DNA of 64,000 nt from positions 4,154,001-4,218,000 of the forward strand of contig NZ_CP111121.1 of NCBI RefSeq assembly GCF_026314945.1. The letters run 5' to 3'. A model generated the notes under the pieces. That model was not told where the DNA came from. It did not search any database and saw only the letters and a program-made list of their open reading frames with translations. Position numbers and translations under genes: made by a program. This DNA comes from Chryseobacterium fluminis. GTDB taxonomy: Bacteria > Bacteroidota > Bacteroidia > Flavobacteriales > Weeksellaceae. This document shows, one piece after another, positions 41,944 to 62,089 of the stretch (position 1 is the first letter of the stretch; the number at the start of each line of letters is the position of its first letter).

Positions 41944-41963
41944 AAATTTTTAGCTTTACTTTG

Positions 41964-42038
41964 TGGTTCGAAATAATTTTTTTTCATCATTTGTGTTTTT
42001 ACCTTCTTGCAATTCAGTTTGCGAGAAGGTTTTGTTTT
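41964..42038 (+). ncRNA. candidate small RNA carrying the complement of the CACAAATGATG motif
   Basis: The forward strand has CATCATTTGTG at 41985-41995, flanked by T-runs, followed by a terminator hairpin: ACCTTCTTGC (42001-42010) with GCGAGAAGGT (42021-42030) and TTTGTTTT. A weak promoter TTACTTTG is at 41956-41963. Twenty nucleotides are exactly complementary to candidate RNA 2 at 51662. Alternatively the minus strand is what matters, as a 3' UTR of the PNGase F-like gene containing the seed motif itself. Confidence 0.4.
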
Positions 42039-48942: not shown

Positions 48943-50670
48943 ATGTTTGAAAAACTGTTGAATTTTAAATTAAGAAAAATTGTTCATTATTCTCTCATTG
49001 TCTGTATTTTATTAATACAAATCATCATAGCCGCATTTTTTTATAATGAATTTATCAATAGGAAAAATTTAGCTTTTATTGAACAACAATTAAAGGGCAT
49101 TCACTCGTTGGAAAACCTGACGGATAATTCCAGAAAAGAACTGATCAATGCACAGACCTATCTTCAGAAATATGTCATCAGCGAGGATGATCGGTATCTG
49201 AGCTCTTACTTTCAGTCATTAAACAAACTTGGGAGTAATTTGGACAGCATCAGCCATTACAAAAATAAATATCCAAAACTTAAAACTTCTTTAACGTCTC
49301 ATAAAAAAGATTCGTTAGAAATAAAAAAATTAAAATTACTGATTGATTCTACACACCAGTTTTCAACAAAACCTAATTTCAGAATACGGAATGATCTTCC
49401 TAAACTTGAAAAATATGATTTCGGAAACAGCTTAGACCTATTTAACTTTAATGTTGAGACAAAGACCTATTCTGATACGATCAAGAAAAAAGGATTGTTC
49501 GGACGCATAGGGGACGCCATATCCGGAAAAGAAAATGTACGTAAAGAGAGTACGGTGATTACCCTGAAACATAAAAAAGCGCCTGATGCTTCCGTGATGC
49601 GCAAGGATCTGGACAGTATTTTTCAGTTGGTTAATAATTATTATACGGGGGAAGTTAAAAAAATACAGGTGAATGCCACCGACAAGCAGAATAATACCAG
49701 CGAAGTGTATAAGATGTTCAGTAATCTGCTGATCTACAGCGATGGTCTGATGAACATTTATGAATCTGCCATTAAAGGATCGAAAGCTGATCTTGAAAAA
49801 GAATATAATAAGCAGAATTCCAGAAATAACAGGATCAGAACCAATCTTATATTCGGATCGATGATTCTGATGTTTATTGTATCCATACTGATTATGCTGT
49901 TAACCAGAATAGCATTTGTTTATGAAAAAAAACTGAACATTGCCAATGCCCAGATTAAAGAAAATCTGAATTTTAAAAACAGGATATTGGGAATGCTGAG
50001 TCATGAACTGCGCTCACCTCTGAAAATTATAGGGTTGTTTATCAACCGGATCAATAAAAAGACAGATGATGCTAAAATTAAAGAATATCTTACCTTTATC
50101 AGTTTTACGAATGATACGCTGCTCATGCAGGCCAATCAGATCCTTGAATATACGAGAAATCAGGCGGTTGAAAATAAGCTGATTCCTGTTGTCTTTAATC
50201 TGAAACAGGAAATCCAGTCCATCTTACATTCGATTGAACCTTATATAGAAACAAGGAATAACAGGTTTATCATTATAGAAAATATAAATCCTGAAGTGGT
50301 CGTGTTTTCAGACAACAAAAAAATAAATCAGGTTTTTATGAACATTCTCGGAAATGCCAATAAGTTTACAGAAAATGGAGAAATCAGCGTTCATATAAGC
50401 ACGGAAATGATTAATGAAAATGTCATTTCCTTTACTGCAAAAATAAGCGATACCGGAATCGGAATTTCAAAATCCGATTTAGAAAAAATATTTGAGCCTT
50501 ATTACCAGGGAGTTTTATCCGAAGATGTAGATAACCTGGGTGCCGGCCTGGGATTAAGTTTATGCAAAGAGATCGTCGAGCTGTACGATGGAAGCATTAC
50601 GGTATCCAGCGAAATGAAAAAAGGAACGACTGTGATTTTTTCGATAAATTTAAATTGTAATAATGAATGA
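48943..50670 (+). CDS. sensor histidine kinase (hybrid-free, membrane bound)
   Basis: 575 residues. First membrane helix about 16-36 (SLIVCILLIQIIIAAFFY), a ~270-residue periplasmic helical sensor, a second helix about 303-325 (FGSMILMFIVSILIMLL), then HisKA with MLSHELRSPLKIIGLF (His354) and HATPase_c with NILGNANKFTENG, DTGIGIS and GAGLGLSL. It overlaps the response-regulator gene by 8 bp, so the two are co-translated. The signal is unknown; the periplasmic part has no recognised domain. The three sRNA-like units directly downstream are its likely targets via the regulator. Confidence 0.92.
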   Translation: MFEKLLNFKLRKIVHYSLIVCILLIQIIIAAFFYNEFINRKNLAFIEQQLKGIHSLENLTDNSRKELINAQTYLQKYVISEDDRYLSSYFQSLNKLGSNLDSISHYKNKYPKLKTSLTSHKKDSLEIKKLKLLIDSTHQFSTKPNFRIRNDLPKLEKYDFGNSLDLFNFNVETKTYSDTIKKKGLFGRIGDAISGKENVRKESTVITLKHKKAPDASVMRKDLDSIFQLVNNYYTGEVKKIQVNATDKQNNTSEVYKMFSNLLIYSDGLMNIYESAIKGSKADLEKEYNKQNSRNNRIRTNLIFGSMILMFIVSILIMLLTRIAFVYEKKLNIANAQIKENLNFKNRILGMLSHELRSPLKIIGLFINRINKKTDDAKIKEYLTFISFTNDTLLMQANQILEYTRNQAVENKLIPVVFNLKQEIQSILHSIEPYIETRNNRFIIIENINPEVVVFSDNKKINQVFMNILGNANKFTENGEISVHISTEMINENVISFTAKISDTGIGISKSDLEKIFEPYYQGVLSEDVDNLGAGLGLSLCKEIVELYDGSITVSSEMKKGTTVIFSINLNCNNE

Positions 50671-51304
50671 GATAAATAAAAAAACGATACATTTTCTGCT
50701 TGCTGATGACCACAGTCTTATAAGACAGGGAATCATGTTTCTGTTGGAAGATATGGAACTGGAATATAAAGTTTTCCAGGCCTCTAATCTGCAGCGGGCA
50801 TTGGAAAAGATAAGAAACAGGTCTATAGATATCGCCATAATAGATGCTCATTTTCCCGACGGGAACAGTATGACCATTCTGCCGGAAATAAAAAAAATAA
50901 GTCCAGATACTAAAATTCTGATTTTTACGGGAATCGAAGAAGATAAGTATGCCCTTAAATTTCTCAGTGCCGGAGCCCACGGTTTTATAAGCAAGATGAG
51001 TGAGGAGGAAGAAATAAAACAGGCCATTTTTAAAATGCTGCAGAATGGGGAATATATCTCGCCGGCTACACAGACTTTACTCATGGAGTCGGTAAAAAAT
51101 CCCGGTTTTATTAATCCGCTGTCCCGTCTCACAGAGCGGGAATTACAGATTGCAGAAATGTATGCGGCCGGATATGGAAATCTCGAAATTGCAAATCAGC
51201 TGGACGTTAAACAAAATACAGTAAGTACGATTAAAAGAAGAATATTCGACAAACTTCAGATAGACAATATCGTAGCGCTGATCGAACTGATCAAAAGTAC
51301 ATAA
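50663..51304 (+). CDS. NarL/LuxR-type response regulator
   Basis: 213 residues. Receiver domain with acidic pair Asp15-Asp16 (LLADDHSLI), phosphoacceptor Asp61 (IAIIDAHFPDG), Thr about 90 (ILIFTG) and Lys about 110 (GFISKMS). C-terminal LuxR HTH at about 153-198: LTERELQIAEMYAAGYGNLE and DVKQNTVSTIKRRIFDKL. NarL-type domains bind inverted repeats of 7-8-bp half-sites as dimers. The first candidate site, TGTAGATA-AA-TATCTACA, begins 7 bp after this gene's stop. Confidence 0.94.
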   Translation: MNEINKKTIHFLLADDHSLIRQGIMFLLEDMELEYKVFQASNLQRALEKIRNRSIDIAIIDAHFPDGNSMTILPEIKKISPDTKILIFTGIEEDKYALKFLSAGAHGFISKMSEEEEIKQAIFKMLQNGEYISPATQTLLMESVKNPGFINPLSRLTERELQIAEMYAAGYGNLEIANQLDVKQNTVSTIKRRIFDKLQIDNIVALIELIKST

Positions 51305-51310
51305 TAAAAT

Positions 51311-51390
51311 TGTAGATAAATATCTACAGGTCTTTCGATATATATCTACAGGGTTTGTCATAATGCTTCATCTATATCTTAGTACCTTTG
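51311..51390 (+). promoter_or_regulatory. regulator sites and promoter of candidate sRNA 1
   Basis: Site A: perfect palindrome TGTAGATA-AA-TATCTACA (51311-51328). Site B: half-site TATCTACA ends at 51350, exactly 22 bp downstream. The -7 box TACCTTTG starts at 51383, 33 bp after the end of site B. Confidence 0.65.
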
Positions 51391-51395
51391 TGAAG

Positions 51396-51525
51396 CAAAT
51401 AAGAAAATTATTAAAAAAAATTTGGTTCTGCTTACAACACAAATGATGAGAAAGAATCAAAGCTGACACAACACAAATGATCGAAAAATCCAAAACCTCC
51501 GAATTATCGGAGATTTTGGATTTTA
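51396..51525 (+). ncRNA. candidate sRNA 1 of the two-component-linked family
   Basis: Predicted ~130-nt RNA. It contains ACAACACAAATGAT twice (motif CACAAATGAT at 51438 and 51472, 34 nt apart) and ends in a long hairpin (about 51485-51525) with core CCTCCGA-ATTA-TCGGAG. No convincing coding frame, although a 34-codon frame starts at the second motif. Start inferred from the -7 box. Confidence 0.6.
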
Positions 51526-51576
51526 CCTTCAGAAATGATATTGAATTTTTGTGTGCAATTATGGCTCATCGCTTTT

Positions 51577-51656
51577 TGTAGAAAAATATCTATAATGCCG
51601 ACGATATATATCTACACTTATTAAGAGGATTGATTGATGAGATGTTGGTAAATTTG
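51577..51656 (+). promoter_or_regulatory. regulator sites and promoter of candidate sRNA 2
   Basis: Site A TGTAGAAA-AA-TATCTATA (51577-51594). Site B with half-site TATCTACA ending 51616, again 22 bp further. The -7 box TAAATTTG starts at 51649, 33 bp after site B. Confidence 0.65.
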
Positions 51657-51661
51657 TAATC

Positions 51662-51796
51662 GAAAAAAGAACGAGATATTTTTAATTAACCTTTTGATTT
51701 CTATAAAACACAAATGATGAAAAAGAATTGAAATTTCTCACAAACACAAACACAAATGGTTAATGAACCTCCGAGGCTACTTGGAGGTTTTTTGGT
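51662..51796 (+). ncRNA. candidate sRNA 2 of the two-component-linked family
   Basis: Predicted ~135-nt RNA. Contains CACAAATGATG (51709-51719) and CACAAATGGT (51751-51760), then the hairpin AACCTCCGAG-GCTA-CTTGGAGGTT (51766-51789) and a T-run. TTAATTAACC near the 5' part may pair with GGTTAAT after the hairpin. Confidence 0.6.
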
Positions 51797-51898
51797 TAAT
51801 ATTTTTAAATGCAGGAATTGAATAGAGATGCTTCGTGTAATAATAAACCGCAGAGCATGAAAAGTAACTAATTGATATTTAGTTATAAAATAAGATAA

Positions 51899-51978
51899 TT
51901 ATAGAAAACATCGATCGTTTGAAAGATATATATCTATAGAATTAATGATGTATAATTATTTCTATATTGATATTTTTG
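51899..51978 (+). promoter_or_regulatory. regulator site and promoter of candidate sRNA 3
   Basis: Site B half-site TATCTATA ends at 51938; -7 box TATTTTTG starts at 51971, the same 33-bp step. Site A at 51899-51917 is degenerate (TATAGAAAACATCGATC). Confidence 0.6.
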
Positions 51979-51983
51979 TACCA

Positions 51984-52098
51984 CAAAGCAACAAATGAAA
52001 CTGATCTTGGTTTTGACAGACATTAAGATGAGTAGAAGTAATGATCAAAGCACAAATGATGGAAAAATCGAAGCTCCGAAATTTTTCGGAGCTTTTGG
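51984..52098 (+). ncRNA. candidate sRNA 3 of the two-component-linked family
   Basis: Predicted ~115-nt RNA. Contains AACAAATGA (51990-51998) and CACAAATGATG (52051-52061), followed by GGAAAAATCG and the hairpin AAGCTCCGAA-ATTT-TTCGGAGCTT (52071-52094) with TT. The block CACAAATGAT-x-GAAAAATC before the hairpin matches sRNA 1. Confidence 0.6.
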
Positions 52099-52345
52099 TT
52101 TAATTAGTGACCTTAGAAACAAAACGTAATTAAACCTCTGTATCATTATAAAAATATAGCACCGTATCCATAAAAAGATGCCGGCTTCTTTTTTTTAAAT
52201 CTGCTTTAAAAGATAAAATAGCGTAGTATGTTTATATGACTGTATCTGATGATTGTTACTATATATAATCGTGATATGAAAAATATTACATCACATAAAA
52301 AATGCCCGCAAAATACTGCAGACATCTTTTCCTTAACTAAGTTAT
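52099..52345. other. gene-free interval after the sRNA-like units
   Basis: No frame, no further copy of the site or seed motif. An imperfect hairpin at about 52298-52330 probably terminates the minus-strand DUF3108 gene. Confidence 0.4.
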
Positions 52346-53116
52346 TTATTTTGTGAATTTTAGTGGATATTTCACATTTTTATAATCATCAATACTGGCT
52401 TTCAGGGATCCGACAGCCAGTTCGGCTTTCAGCAGCATCGGAACATGATTGGCGTCATTAGAGACCCACATGGTCACGCCTTCTTTTTCCTTGAAAACCC
52501 TTCCGCTTTTTACAGACGGAATAATCTTTAAACAATTAATCGTTCCGAATTTGGTTTTTAAATTTTCTGTGCCTACTACTTTCAGCTGAAAAGGAAACAT
52601 TTCATCATCAATCCATATATTCATATTGATGACAGTTCCTACTTTCAATTCAGCAGGGCTTTTGCTTCTCAGATAATAAAAGCACGAAAGCATATCCTGA
52701 ACACCTTTGACAGATTTGATCACCTTAGAACCGTTGGCAGGAGTTTTTTTATCTGTTAAAATCAAAGTATTGTTATTATGATTGAAAACCGTTTCAAAAT
52801 GCTGACGGTAGCTGCCTTCTTTGACATTTCTCACATAAAAGCTGGGAAGTTCCGTCTGGATATTGATAAAACTTTCATATAAGTCCTCTACTTTAAAGAA
52901 AGCTTTAACAGCGCCTGTCGTAGATCCGGTACCTTTTACATAGAGGTGTGGAGCGCCGAGATAGGTTGTTGTTTTTGTGGTTAAATTAGCAGTACCGGCA
53001 TTTAGAAATCCATAATGAATCCGGAGGGTTATCGATTCGCCGTTGGCTATATTATCAATCTGAGCTGTTCCCAGACCAAACATCAGTAAAGTTAAAAAAA
53101 TGAATACTTTCTTCAT
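52346..53116 (-). CDS. DUF3108 domain protein, exported
   Basis: 256 residues from ATG 53116, which gives a clean signal peptide (KKVFIFLTLLMFGLGTAQ); the frame is open 14 codons further without a signal-like start. The DUF3108 domain spans the rest: ESITLRIHYGFLNAGTANLT, VQDMLSCFYYLRS, GVTMWVSNDANHVPMLLKAE. Probably a periplasmic beta-rich protein of unknown function. Monocistronic, divergent from the ferredoxin reductase gene. Confidence 0.87.
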   Translation of the reverse strand: MKKVFIFLTLLMFGLGTAQIDNIANGESITLRIHYGFLNAGTANLTTKTTTYLGAPHLYVKGTGSTTGAVKAFFKVEDLYESFINIQTELPSFYVRNVKEGSYRQHFETVFNHNNNTLILTDKKTPANGSKVIKSVKGVQDMLSCFYYLRSKSPAELKVGTVINMNIWIDDEMFPFQLKVVGTENLKTKFGTINCLKIIPSVKSGRVFKEKEGVTMWVSNDANHVPMLLKAELAVGSLKASIDDYKNVKYPLKFTK

Positions 53117-53221
53117 ATCAAGTGGTTTACAAAAAGGTTGCCAATAATAAGCGTTCATGGTATTTGATAAATCTCAGTTTTTTATTTAGACTGAATTAAA
53201 TAGGCTTCGCATTAAAATTAG

Positions 53222-60955: not shown

Positions 60956-62089
60956 ATGAAGAAGATTCTGATAACCGGAGGAGCCGGATTTATAGGCAGC
61001 AAACTTTCTCTGGAATTGCAACAGAAAGGGTACGAAGTAACGATATTAGACAATCTCTCTTCACAGATTCACGGGGAAAATCCTGAGTCGGATTCGCCCC
61101 TATACAGAAGTATTCTCGGGAAAGTAAACTTTATCAAAGGGGATGTTGCTAATTTTGAAGATTGGGAACGCGCACTTGAGAATCAGAATGTCGTTGTGCA
61201 TTTTGCTGCAGAAACCGGAACCGGCCAATCGATGTACCAGATTGAAAAATATACGGAAGTAAATGTTTCCGGAACCGCCATCATGCTGGATATCCTGGTC
61301 AATCAGCCGCATAAAGTCACAAAAGTTATTATCGCTTCTTCCAGAGCAGTCTATGGAGAAGGCAAATATCTGCATCCGGAATTGGGATTAATCTATCCCA
61401 AACCCCGAAATGTAGAAACCATGCGGAACGGGAAATTTGAGATTATTTATCCCGACGGGCAGATGCTGACGGCACTTCCGACAGACGAAGAATCGAAAAT
61501 TCATCCCACTTCCATCTACGGAATTACCAAATATACCCAGGAACAGATGGTCATGACGGCCTGTTCATCAATGGGGGTGGCCCCGGTAGCCCTTCGCTTT
61601 CAGAATGTCTACGGAGAAGGGCAGTCGCTGCTTAATCCATATACCGGAATTTTATCTATTTTTTCATCACAGATCCTTAACGGAAACAATATCAATGTTT
61701 TTGAAGACGGTAAAGAATCAAGGGATTTTATTCACGTGGATGACGCCGTTGAAGCCACAATAAAATGTATCGAAAATGACGCTGCAAACGGCGAAGTATT
61801 CAATGTCGGAACCGGTGTTTCAACCTCGGTAACCACCGTTGCGGAAAGTCTCAGGAAGTTTTATAACATCGATTTTAAAATCCATGTTTCAGGACAGTTC
61901 CGTTTAGGAGATATCAGGCATAATTTTGCGGATATCAGCAAGATCAGGACAAAGCTGAATTTTCAGCCACGGATATCTTTTGAAGAAGGCATGTGTAAAT
62001 TCACCAGTTGGGTATTACAGCAGAATATTCAGGATGTGAAGTTTAAAGAATCACTGGAAGAAATGAAAATTAAAGGTCTTTTAAAATAA
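60956..62089 (+). CDS. NAD-dependent sugar epimerase/dehydratase (extended SDR)
   Basis: 377 residues from ATG 60956 (MKKILITGGAGFIGSKLSLE); the frame is open 12 codons further, overlapping the acyltransferase. Nucleotide loop GGAGFIGS, catalytic YGITK and the substrate-side RFQNVYGEGQSLLNPYTG. An insertion around residues 145-180 (YPKPRNVETMRNGKFEIIYP) recalls dTDP-L-rhamnose 4-epimerase-like enzymes. Provides an activated sugar for the neighbouring transferases. Confidence 0.88.
   Translation: MKKILITGGAGFIGSKLSLELQQKGYEVTILDNLSSQIHGENPESDSPLYRSILGKVNFIKGDVANFEDWERALENQNVVVHFAAETGTGQSMYQIEKYTEVNVSGTAIMLDILVNQPHKVTKVIIASSRAVYGEGKYLHPELGLIYPKPRNVETMRNGKFEIIYPDGQMLTALPTDEESKIHPTSIYGITKYTQEQMVMTACSSMGVAPVALRFQNVYGEGQSLLNPYTGILSIFSSQILNGNNINVFEDGKESRDFIHVDDAVEATIKCIENDAANGEVFNVGTGVSTSVTTVAESLRKFYNIDFKIHVSGQFRLGDIRHNFADISKIRTKLNFQPRISFEEGMCKFTSWVLQQNIQDVKFKESLEEMKIKGLLK

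Follow-up and report, generated by a model that had tools for sequence, protein, structure and literature searches.

Three probable sponge RNA units beside a two-component system in Chryseobacterium fluminis and their candidate partner, a dispersed sRNA-like family

Three short RNA units located directly behind the genes of a sensor histidine kinase and a NarL-type response regulator (RR) in Chryseobacterium fluminis are probably sponge (decoy) RNAs, activated by the RR, that titrate a multicopy family of small RNAs (sRNAs). According to this model, a signal would act on the histidine kinase, leading to a phosphorylated RR that would bind TGTAGATAAATATCTACA-type sites 5′ of each -7 box and switch on short terminated RNAs. 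Each of these would expose at least one AACACAAAUGAUGAAA-like motif, and in one clade the first motif lies within the loop of a hairpin; the motifs would pair over 21-25 bp with AAUUUUUUUUCAUCAUUUGUGUUUUU, the U-rich core of at least eight dispersed and separately transcribed short sRNAs. With both RNAs made and paired in cells, the decoy would draw the sRNAs off the mRNAs that they regulate and so release these; the most likely targets carry a ACACAAAUGA-like sequence at their start codon. The sequence itself shows the complementarity between motif and core, the conservation of both partners, the promoter geometry and, in one clade, a stem around the first motif.

The locus and its three RNA units

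The window analyzed here, a stretch of 64,000 nucleotides, is part of contig C2 of a 5.07-Mb genome. The RR encoded in it, whose best-matching named relative is found in Chryseobacterium sp. JUb7 (82% identity), is followed by approximately 1 kb without long ORFs that extends to a DUF3108 gene:

48943-50670, + strand: sensor histidine kinase gene (575 aa); ORF with Pfam HATPase_c (E 8.2e-25) and a HisKA match slightly under its Pfam cut-off
50663-51304, + strand: NarL/GerE-type RR gene (213 aa); Pfam Response_reg and GerE
51311-51350, no strand: unit 1 operator, from sequence; TGTAGATAAATATCTACA at 51311-51328 and TCGATATATATCTACA at 51335-51350, sites 22 bp apart
51383-51390, + strand: unit 1 -7 box TACCTTTG, from sequence
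51397-51526, + strand: unit 1 RNA (predicted ends); motif copies at 51437-51449 and 51471-51483
51485-51525, + strand: unit 1 intrinsic terminator, from the fold
51577-51616, no strand: unit 2 operator, from sequence; 51577-51594 and 51602-51616, sites 22 bp apart
51649-51656, + strand: unit 2 -7 box TAAATTTG, from sequence
51663-51798, + strand: unit 2 RNA (predicted ends); motif copies at 51708-51720 and 51750-51762, terminator at 51766-51796
51925-51938, no strand: unit 3 operator, single site; score 13 of 16, under the threshold used
51971-51978, + strand: unit 3 -7 box TATTTTTG, from sequence
51985-52100, + strand: unit 3 RNA (predicted ends); motif at 52050-52062, weak motif near 51990, terminator at 52071-52096
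52346-53158, - strand: DUF3108 gene, convergent with the RR gene; end of the gene-free stretch

The initial annotation of this DNA had placed three sibling modules behind the histidine kinase/NarL-type RR operon, and a re-reading of the sequence bears this out: a predicted promoter, RNA and terminator make up each of them between 51311 and 52100, at coordinates correct to within one or two bases. The TATCTA[CT]A element and the TAnnTTTG -7 box described for every module are likewise present at a fixed spacing, with the box exactly 40 bp behind the proximal TATCTA in each of the three units, and the operator sites of units 1 and 2 are dyad-like. An own -7 box, operator spacing and terminator would fit a separate transcription of each unit. 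The repeated motif was found within a base or two of the positions given for it (51438, 51472, 51709, 51751, 51990 and 52051), the one near 51990 in unit 3 being weak (AACAAATGAA). The motif is not a product of chance, since ACACAAATGATGA has 38 genome matches at <=1 mismatch versus seven for the reversed pattern, and exact motif sites number 40 versus 0.0 in shuffles across 81 regions (80 RR-downstream regions of named relatives plus the present one).

A comparison with Rfam, proposed earlier with Flavo-1 as an example, yielded no family at the gathering cut-off in units or sRNA loci. In a search of the window with 4227 families (release 15), this cut-off was reached by tRNA only; between 51200 and 52400, the 23 matches at E<=10 were all under gathering (best E 0.038), and ten loci carrying sRNA copies or units gave no family match.

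As the motif resembles a start region, it could be argued that the units encode small peptides from its ATGATG. This is hardly likely at all, as the frames are short (median 7.5 aa over 74 translated sites, <=1 mismatch), 40 of the 74 were compared and differ in sequence and length, and many copies of the second clade have GTG in place of the first ATG. Small peptides starting at the motif ATG were consequently rejected on account of short and dissimilar frames.

The regulator, its operator and the units in relatives

Uninterrupted relatives of the RR (E <= 1e-75, 55-71% identity) are found in 33 of 35 same-genus relatives; G028 has only distant RR paralogues. In G026, the RR relative is split into two pieces (G026:C11:458307-458929). 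The RR loci gathered from named genomes (n=80) include Chryseobacterium, Kaistella, Epilithonimonas, Halpernia, Soonwooa and Amniculibacterium. The initial annotation had named the absence of motif units beside orthologous kinase/regulator genes as evidence that would speak against it, and the units are present across Chryseobacterium and its kin: the 80 regions hold a mean of 3.26 motif sites versus 0.60 when shuffled and 0.63 on the other strand, and 68 of them hold at least two. On the other hand, three redundant RNAs do not represent the conserved state, as in many of the relatives that were read the motif recurs along a single longer RNA that also contains internal hairpins. Two tandem unit copies are seen in L020, L064 and L097, for example, a short single unit in Soonwooa (L119) and Halpernia (L091), and an extra unit copy distant from the RR in three genomes (L061-L063); no unit was seen downstream of the RR when the sequences of L096 and L132 were read. 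At E <= 1e-60, the RR is missing from 11 of 99 genus genomes. Multiplicity, together with dispensability, points to a putative decoy role.

An operator score of at least 14 of 16 was reached in 79 of 83 regions (the 80 loci and the three units of the present genome counted apart) versus 2 of 83 shuffled ones. The proximal site lies 40 bp from the -7 box in 61/83 and 39 bp in 17/83 (78/83 together), a count in which the box closest to 40 bp was chosen with a lenient pattern and for which the shuffled control covers the operator score, not the distance. The position and conservation of these sites suggest that they are bound by the RR. Operator-like sites with <=2 mismatches are not in excess genome-wide (14 versus 13 for the reversed pattern), and the units form their only cluster; since there is no other such cluster in the genome, the RR may serve mainly the three units.

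A dispersed sRNA-like family carries the complement of the motif

The genome-wide motif search also matched sites located just behind hairpins, which on the other strand are short sRNA-like genes. The unit motif ACACAAATGATGAAA is the reverse complement of TTTCATCATTTGTGT, the core of this dispersed family, whose members consist of a variable 5′ part, TTTTTCATCATTTGTGTTTTT and a terminator hairpin, with a -7-like box in front. TTTTTCATCATTTGTGTTTTT (21 nt) has eight exact copies in the genome, one of them within the window:

41957-42038, + strand: partner family copy; box TACTTTG at 41957-41963, core TTTCATCATTTGTGTTTTT at 41982-42000, terminator from 42001

All eight have a -7-like box on the 5′ side (TAnnTTT[GA]- or TAnTTTG-like) and a hairpin with a T-rich stretch on the 3′ side. 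In predicted folds that include flanking bases, the core is less than 60% unpaired in four of the eight.

The exact 19-nt core was found, by a count made by hand, in 99/99 genus genomes, the own one included, at 2-10 copies each, some of which may be the antisense strand of a unit. Within the family, it was found in 192 of 246 genomes (the 99 included) and 21 of 33 genera, where the reversed pattern gave 0. When one mismatch was allowed, each of 35 genus genomes had 4-16 matches (the own genome and the unit matches included), while in other families there was one match in 1 of 22 genomes; the reversed core pattern gave single matches in 3 of 57 genomes. Among 104 distinct gathered copies, a terminator lies within 8 nt of the core in 86 (versus 104 of 4000 random positions) and a -7-like box within 75 nt in 64 (versus 568 of 4000). 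The 18 copies without a terminator under this rule include apparent gene-internal matches, unit antisense strands and copies with imperfect hairpins.

One sRNA subfamily has a 5′ hairpin, CCTTGAATGAGGGAACAAGTCAAGG, and a AGAATCGTATCGCC...ATACGATTCT terminator that are nearly unchanged across species (examples are L148, L196, L203, L210, L214, L221, L227, L235 and L250). It may represent an old member, and copies of similar layout are found in other genera (L276, L278). By coordinates, an sRNA copy lies approximately 9 kb from the RR in the own genome and in G008, G010, G027 and G032, a linkage that may be ancestral.

It is quite unlikely that the dispersed elements are instead 3′ UTR/terminator or DNA repeats and that the units act on the transcripts carrying them. 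Some copies (L197, L206, L208, L226, L229, L274 and L275) seem, as judged by eye, to lie closely behind a stop codon and may derive from 3′ UTRs, and 40 of the 104 have no -7-like box within 75 nt. Nevertheless, both box and terminator accompany all the own copies, the 5′ part of the CCTTGAATGAGGGAACAAGTCAAGG subfamily is kept across species, and a 3′ UTR-derived member is described even for the FopS sRNAs of Bacteroides (PMC11697453).

Pairing between motif and core

The initial annotation had postulated that the units pair with, or sequester something from, targets through the repeated motif, and the sequence now offers a clear candidate for the RNA partner in the core of the sRNA family. 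When the core was scanned against 12,792 stretches of 40 nt on both strands of the window, the best partner, at -29.3 kcal/mol, was the strand opposite the family copy, followed by units 2, 1 and 3 at -28.8, -26.3 and -24.6 kcal/mol, with duplexes of 25, 22 and 21 bp, respectively. The stretch ranked next after these reached -18.9 kcal/mol, a gap of 5.7. The unit duplexes lie below all 300 shuffles of each (means -10.8 to -12.0, lowest -21.2). The extended complementarity to a shared region of an sRNA family that is expected of a sponge of the QrrX or CrfA kind is thus found, with 21-25 paired bases.

Pairing is also predicted in the relatives. Over the 80 loci, the strongest duplex on the 3′ side of the RR has a mean of -21.2 versus -12.3 in coding sequence, -10.7 on the other strand and -11.5 with a scrambled core, and 48 loci reach -20 or lower versus 0 in each of the three controls. 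The remaining 32 are weaker than -20, among them L091, where the scanned stretch cuts the site. Changes in the motif keep the pair in 69/156 cases versus 48/298 in chance sites. In 135 distinct motif sites (<=2 mismatches), A-to-G changes (57) exceed A-to-T (18) and A-to-C (11), an excess that fits G-U pairing and that transition bias may explain; pair-breaking G-to-A changes (17) are not rare. Compensatory changes between core and motif were sought in 18 named genomes and in 37 of 54 core-negative genomes and none was found, the core being invariant wherever it occurs.

The Epilithonimonas-type units (L084, L090, L092, L095, L098 and L102) have ACACACATAATGA-like or interrupted motifs that pair with the core at -13.1 to -14.1, about as weakly as the controls, and their genomes do hold the exact core. 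Two TTTCATTATGTGTGTTTTT matches would complement the Epilithonimonas motif; one of the two was examined, in G065, and no terminator was seen after it.

These weakly pairing units keep ACAC...ATGA-like motifs, a point in favor of RNAs that titrate a protein in the manner of CsrB or CrcZ, for which the likeness to the sRNA core would be secondary or the protein would also handle the sRNAs. The repetition of the motif in loops and single strands, the two-component system (TCS) directly upstream, as in cbrAB-crcZ, and the presence of a gene for an RRM_1 protein (G000:C2:277970-278176) would also fit. However, a protein site would not need to complement an sRNA core found throughout the family, and within the window the units stand out as extremes in their pairing with that core, which makes this alternative unlikely. 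The CbrAB-CrcZ and GacSA-RsmX/Y/Z systems are similar in that a TCS controls repeated-motif RNAs, but these titrate regulator proteins, while the best partner seen here is an RNA family. CsrA/RsmA is bound by repeated GGA in the hairpin loops of CsrB and RsmX/Y/Z; in the units, GGA is confined to the stems of terminators and a single place in unit 3 and does not recur in loops (folds, by eye). In CrcZ, a repeated A-rich AAYAAYAA motif binds Hfq/Crc. Qrr sRNAs depend on a sigma-54 promoter and the sigma-54-dependent RR LuxO, whereas the units have a TAnnTTTG box and a NarL/GerE RR. The RsmX/Y/Z and Qrr parallels drawn in the initial annotation are replaced: as the motif partner is a dispersed sRNA-like family, a regulated sponge RNA such as QrrX or CrfA comes closest in its mode of action.

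A stem around the first motif

It had been suggested that RNA structure is conserved in the hairpins of the three modules. The hairpins are present as ordinary intrinsic terminators, and the conserved structure is instead a stem that encloses motif 1 in its loop:

51421-51429 / 51453-51461, + strand: unit 1 stem, arms TTTGGTTCT/AGAATCAAA; two-sided changes keep the pairs in chosen relatives

Covariation and conservation of this stem are observed in one clade that includes the present genome. The alignment comprises 17 rows picked for showing the stem (8 of 25 were dropped), and as MAFFT misplaced the right arm in three of them, both the hand-shifted and the unshifted versions were scored. After the shift of the 3/17 rows, 151 of 153 cells pair; when right arms are re-dealt, 139.7 do so on average and 148 at most. 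In the unshifted alignment, 93.3% of stem cells pair, two-sided changes are found in five of nine stem pairs (shuffles: mean 1.8, 3/500 as high) and the covariation score is above all 500 shuffles; further pair types are not in excess (267/500 shuffles as high). Sliding the stem partner lowers pairing to 31-69%. Over all 67 first sites, the excess of enclosing stems is modest (16.4 versus 13.5 shuffled, p 0.025), with a score of at least 18 in 20 of them versus nine with swapped arms, so that the stem belongs to part of the unit family.

Possible mRNA targets of the sRNAs

Bacteroidota are without Shine-Dalgarno sequences, and an A at -3 is described as favoring initiation in Flavobacterium johnsoniae (PMC6847099), which makes an sRNA that blocks start codons plausible, as described for FopS in Bacteroides (PMC11697453). 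The sequence ACACAAATGA has 25 genome matches (versus seven reversed), of which eight are sRNA copies, three are unit sites and 14 are others. A few of these others lie at apparent starts of open frames: one of 57 aa that is lipoprotein-like and has another copy 23 nt upstream, two ORFs of 956 and 250 aa, and one short frame. In L362 (G000:C2:222359-223100), two neighboring minus-strand frames are seen, one lipoprotein-like with two ACACAAATGA in its start region and the other with ACACAAAT before its start; these frames are possible sRNA targets. Between approximately 760 and 1700 of L365 (G000:C2:97000-100500), some 900 nt without a long ORF hold a TACATTTG box, one exact ACACAAATGATGA and, before the next ORF, AAACACAAATA; this stretch is perhaps a long leader or another decoy.

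Pairing with the core is not enriched at the 46 gene starts of the window (mean -8.3 versus -7.9 internally, p 0.44), the best start region being that of an epimerase gene (assigned by Pfam) at 60956 (-18.3). A general mimicry of start codons was rejected for this lack of pairing excess. The same comparison bears on the proposal that the units are themselves trans-acting sRNAs on mRNAs, their match to the sRNA family being a by-product of start-like and anti-start sequence. The motif does look like an A-rich start region and a few genes carry ACACAAATGA at the start codon, but the window starts argue against a general start-region effect and the unit strand is start-like rather than complementary to starts; we regard this proposal as very unlikely.

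The broader partner and a second output of the regulator

In a count made by hand over 246 family genomes, 136 have the RR (E <= 1e-60), the exact core being present in 128 of these, and the core was also found in 64 of the 110 genomes without RR. In seven of the eight RR-positive core-negative genomes, the operator precedes a membrane GT2 glycosyltransferase gene and there is no RNA unit. The eighth, G105, is the only one with a unit; of its near-core matches two were read, one being the unit itself and the other probably the start of a gene. As the core is common without the RR and seven of these eight genomes are without a unit, the sRNAs look like the broader part of the system and the unit like a secondary one, a putative modulator.

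The GT2 arrangement was recognized, by eye on the DNA, in 16 of 20 examined stretches (L312-L316, L318-L323 and L325-L329); three others have an RNA unit (L317, L324 and L330) and one has neither (L331). Two of the 16 GT2-type genes were tested and match Pfam Glyco_tranf_2_3, and for one GT2 gene the NCBIfam models NodC and PgaC are nearest, far under cut-off. The core is present in the genomes of nine of the 16 GT2-type stretches, so a GT2 output is compatible with the sRNAs. G141 has two RRs, one GT2-type and one RNA-type. In a tree of 37 RRs, one branch (100/99) separates the GT2-type from the RNA-type, which indicates sister RR lineages with a shared operator style and two outputs; the tree omits L119, L315, L324, L325, L330 and L331, thus leaving both G141 RRs unplaced, and labels L132 as RNA-type although no unit was seen there.

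Relation to known systems and significance

In Vibrio cholerae, QrrX is described as an RNA with a gene of its own that base-pairs with the sibling sRNAs Qrr1-4 and inactivates them, the gene of its activator, qrrT, being immediately upstream (PMC9732341). The candidate system would resemble it in having a separate sponge gene for sibling sRNAs with the activator gene adjoining upstream. Unlike the histidine kinase and NarL-type RR of the present locus, QrrT is LysR-type, and QrrX is Hfq-associated and belongs to another phylum (PMC9732341); no sequence relation is claimed. CrfA of Caulobacter crescentus is similarly a regulated RNA that sponges an sRNA family, the four sRNAs SisA-D, but it is induced by carbon starvation in another phylum, and no adjacent TCS is mentioned in the available text of that report (PMC12559287). 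On the side of the partner, the FopS sRNAs of Bacteroides are paralogous, approximately 65-70 nt long, with canonical promoters and pairing near start codons, and number 14 in B. thetaiotaomicron and 12-15 per genome (PMC11697453). The candidate partner family is multicopy and predicted to be short; a box is seen on the 5′ side of 8/8 own copies and, within 75 nt, of 64/104 overall. Unlike FopS, which has a conserved R1′ seed sequence and pairs through its 5′ end, it has its core just before the terminator; the word 'sponge' is not mentioned in the main text of the FopS paper (PMC11697453). Among the matches listed from the open-licence literature, there is no such sponge in Bacteroidota and no such sRNA family in Chryseobacterium or Weeksellaceae.

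Most of what is known about sRNA regulation in Bacteroidota comes from Bacteroides, a genus without classical RNA chaperones (PMC11697453). Against this background, the sequence alone reveals an sRNA-like family in 99/99 genus genomes together with an antagonist that appears to be dedicated to it and under the control of a signal, and since both partners, the operator and the promoter are defined, the circuit is directly testable in laboratory strains. We propose tentatively, at somewhat less than even confidence, that a TCS-driven sponge, apparently the first in Bacteroidota in the literature searched, controls a family-wide multicopy sRNA network of Weeksellaceae, and that one RR/operator module has a GT2 or a sponge output in sister lineages. 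If this is true, the sponge would act post-transcriptionally, either in place of the direct control of surface polysaccharide or alongside it, and the module would offer a natural example of a single regulator system whose output is a protein in one lineage and a decoy RNA in the sister lineage.
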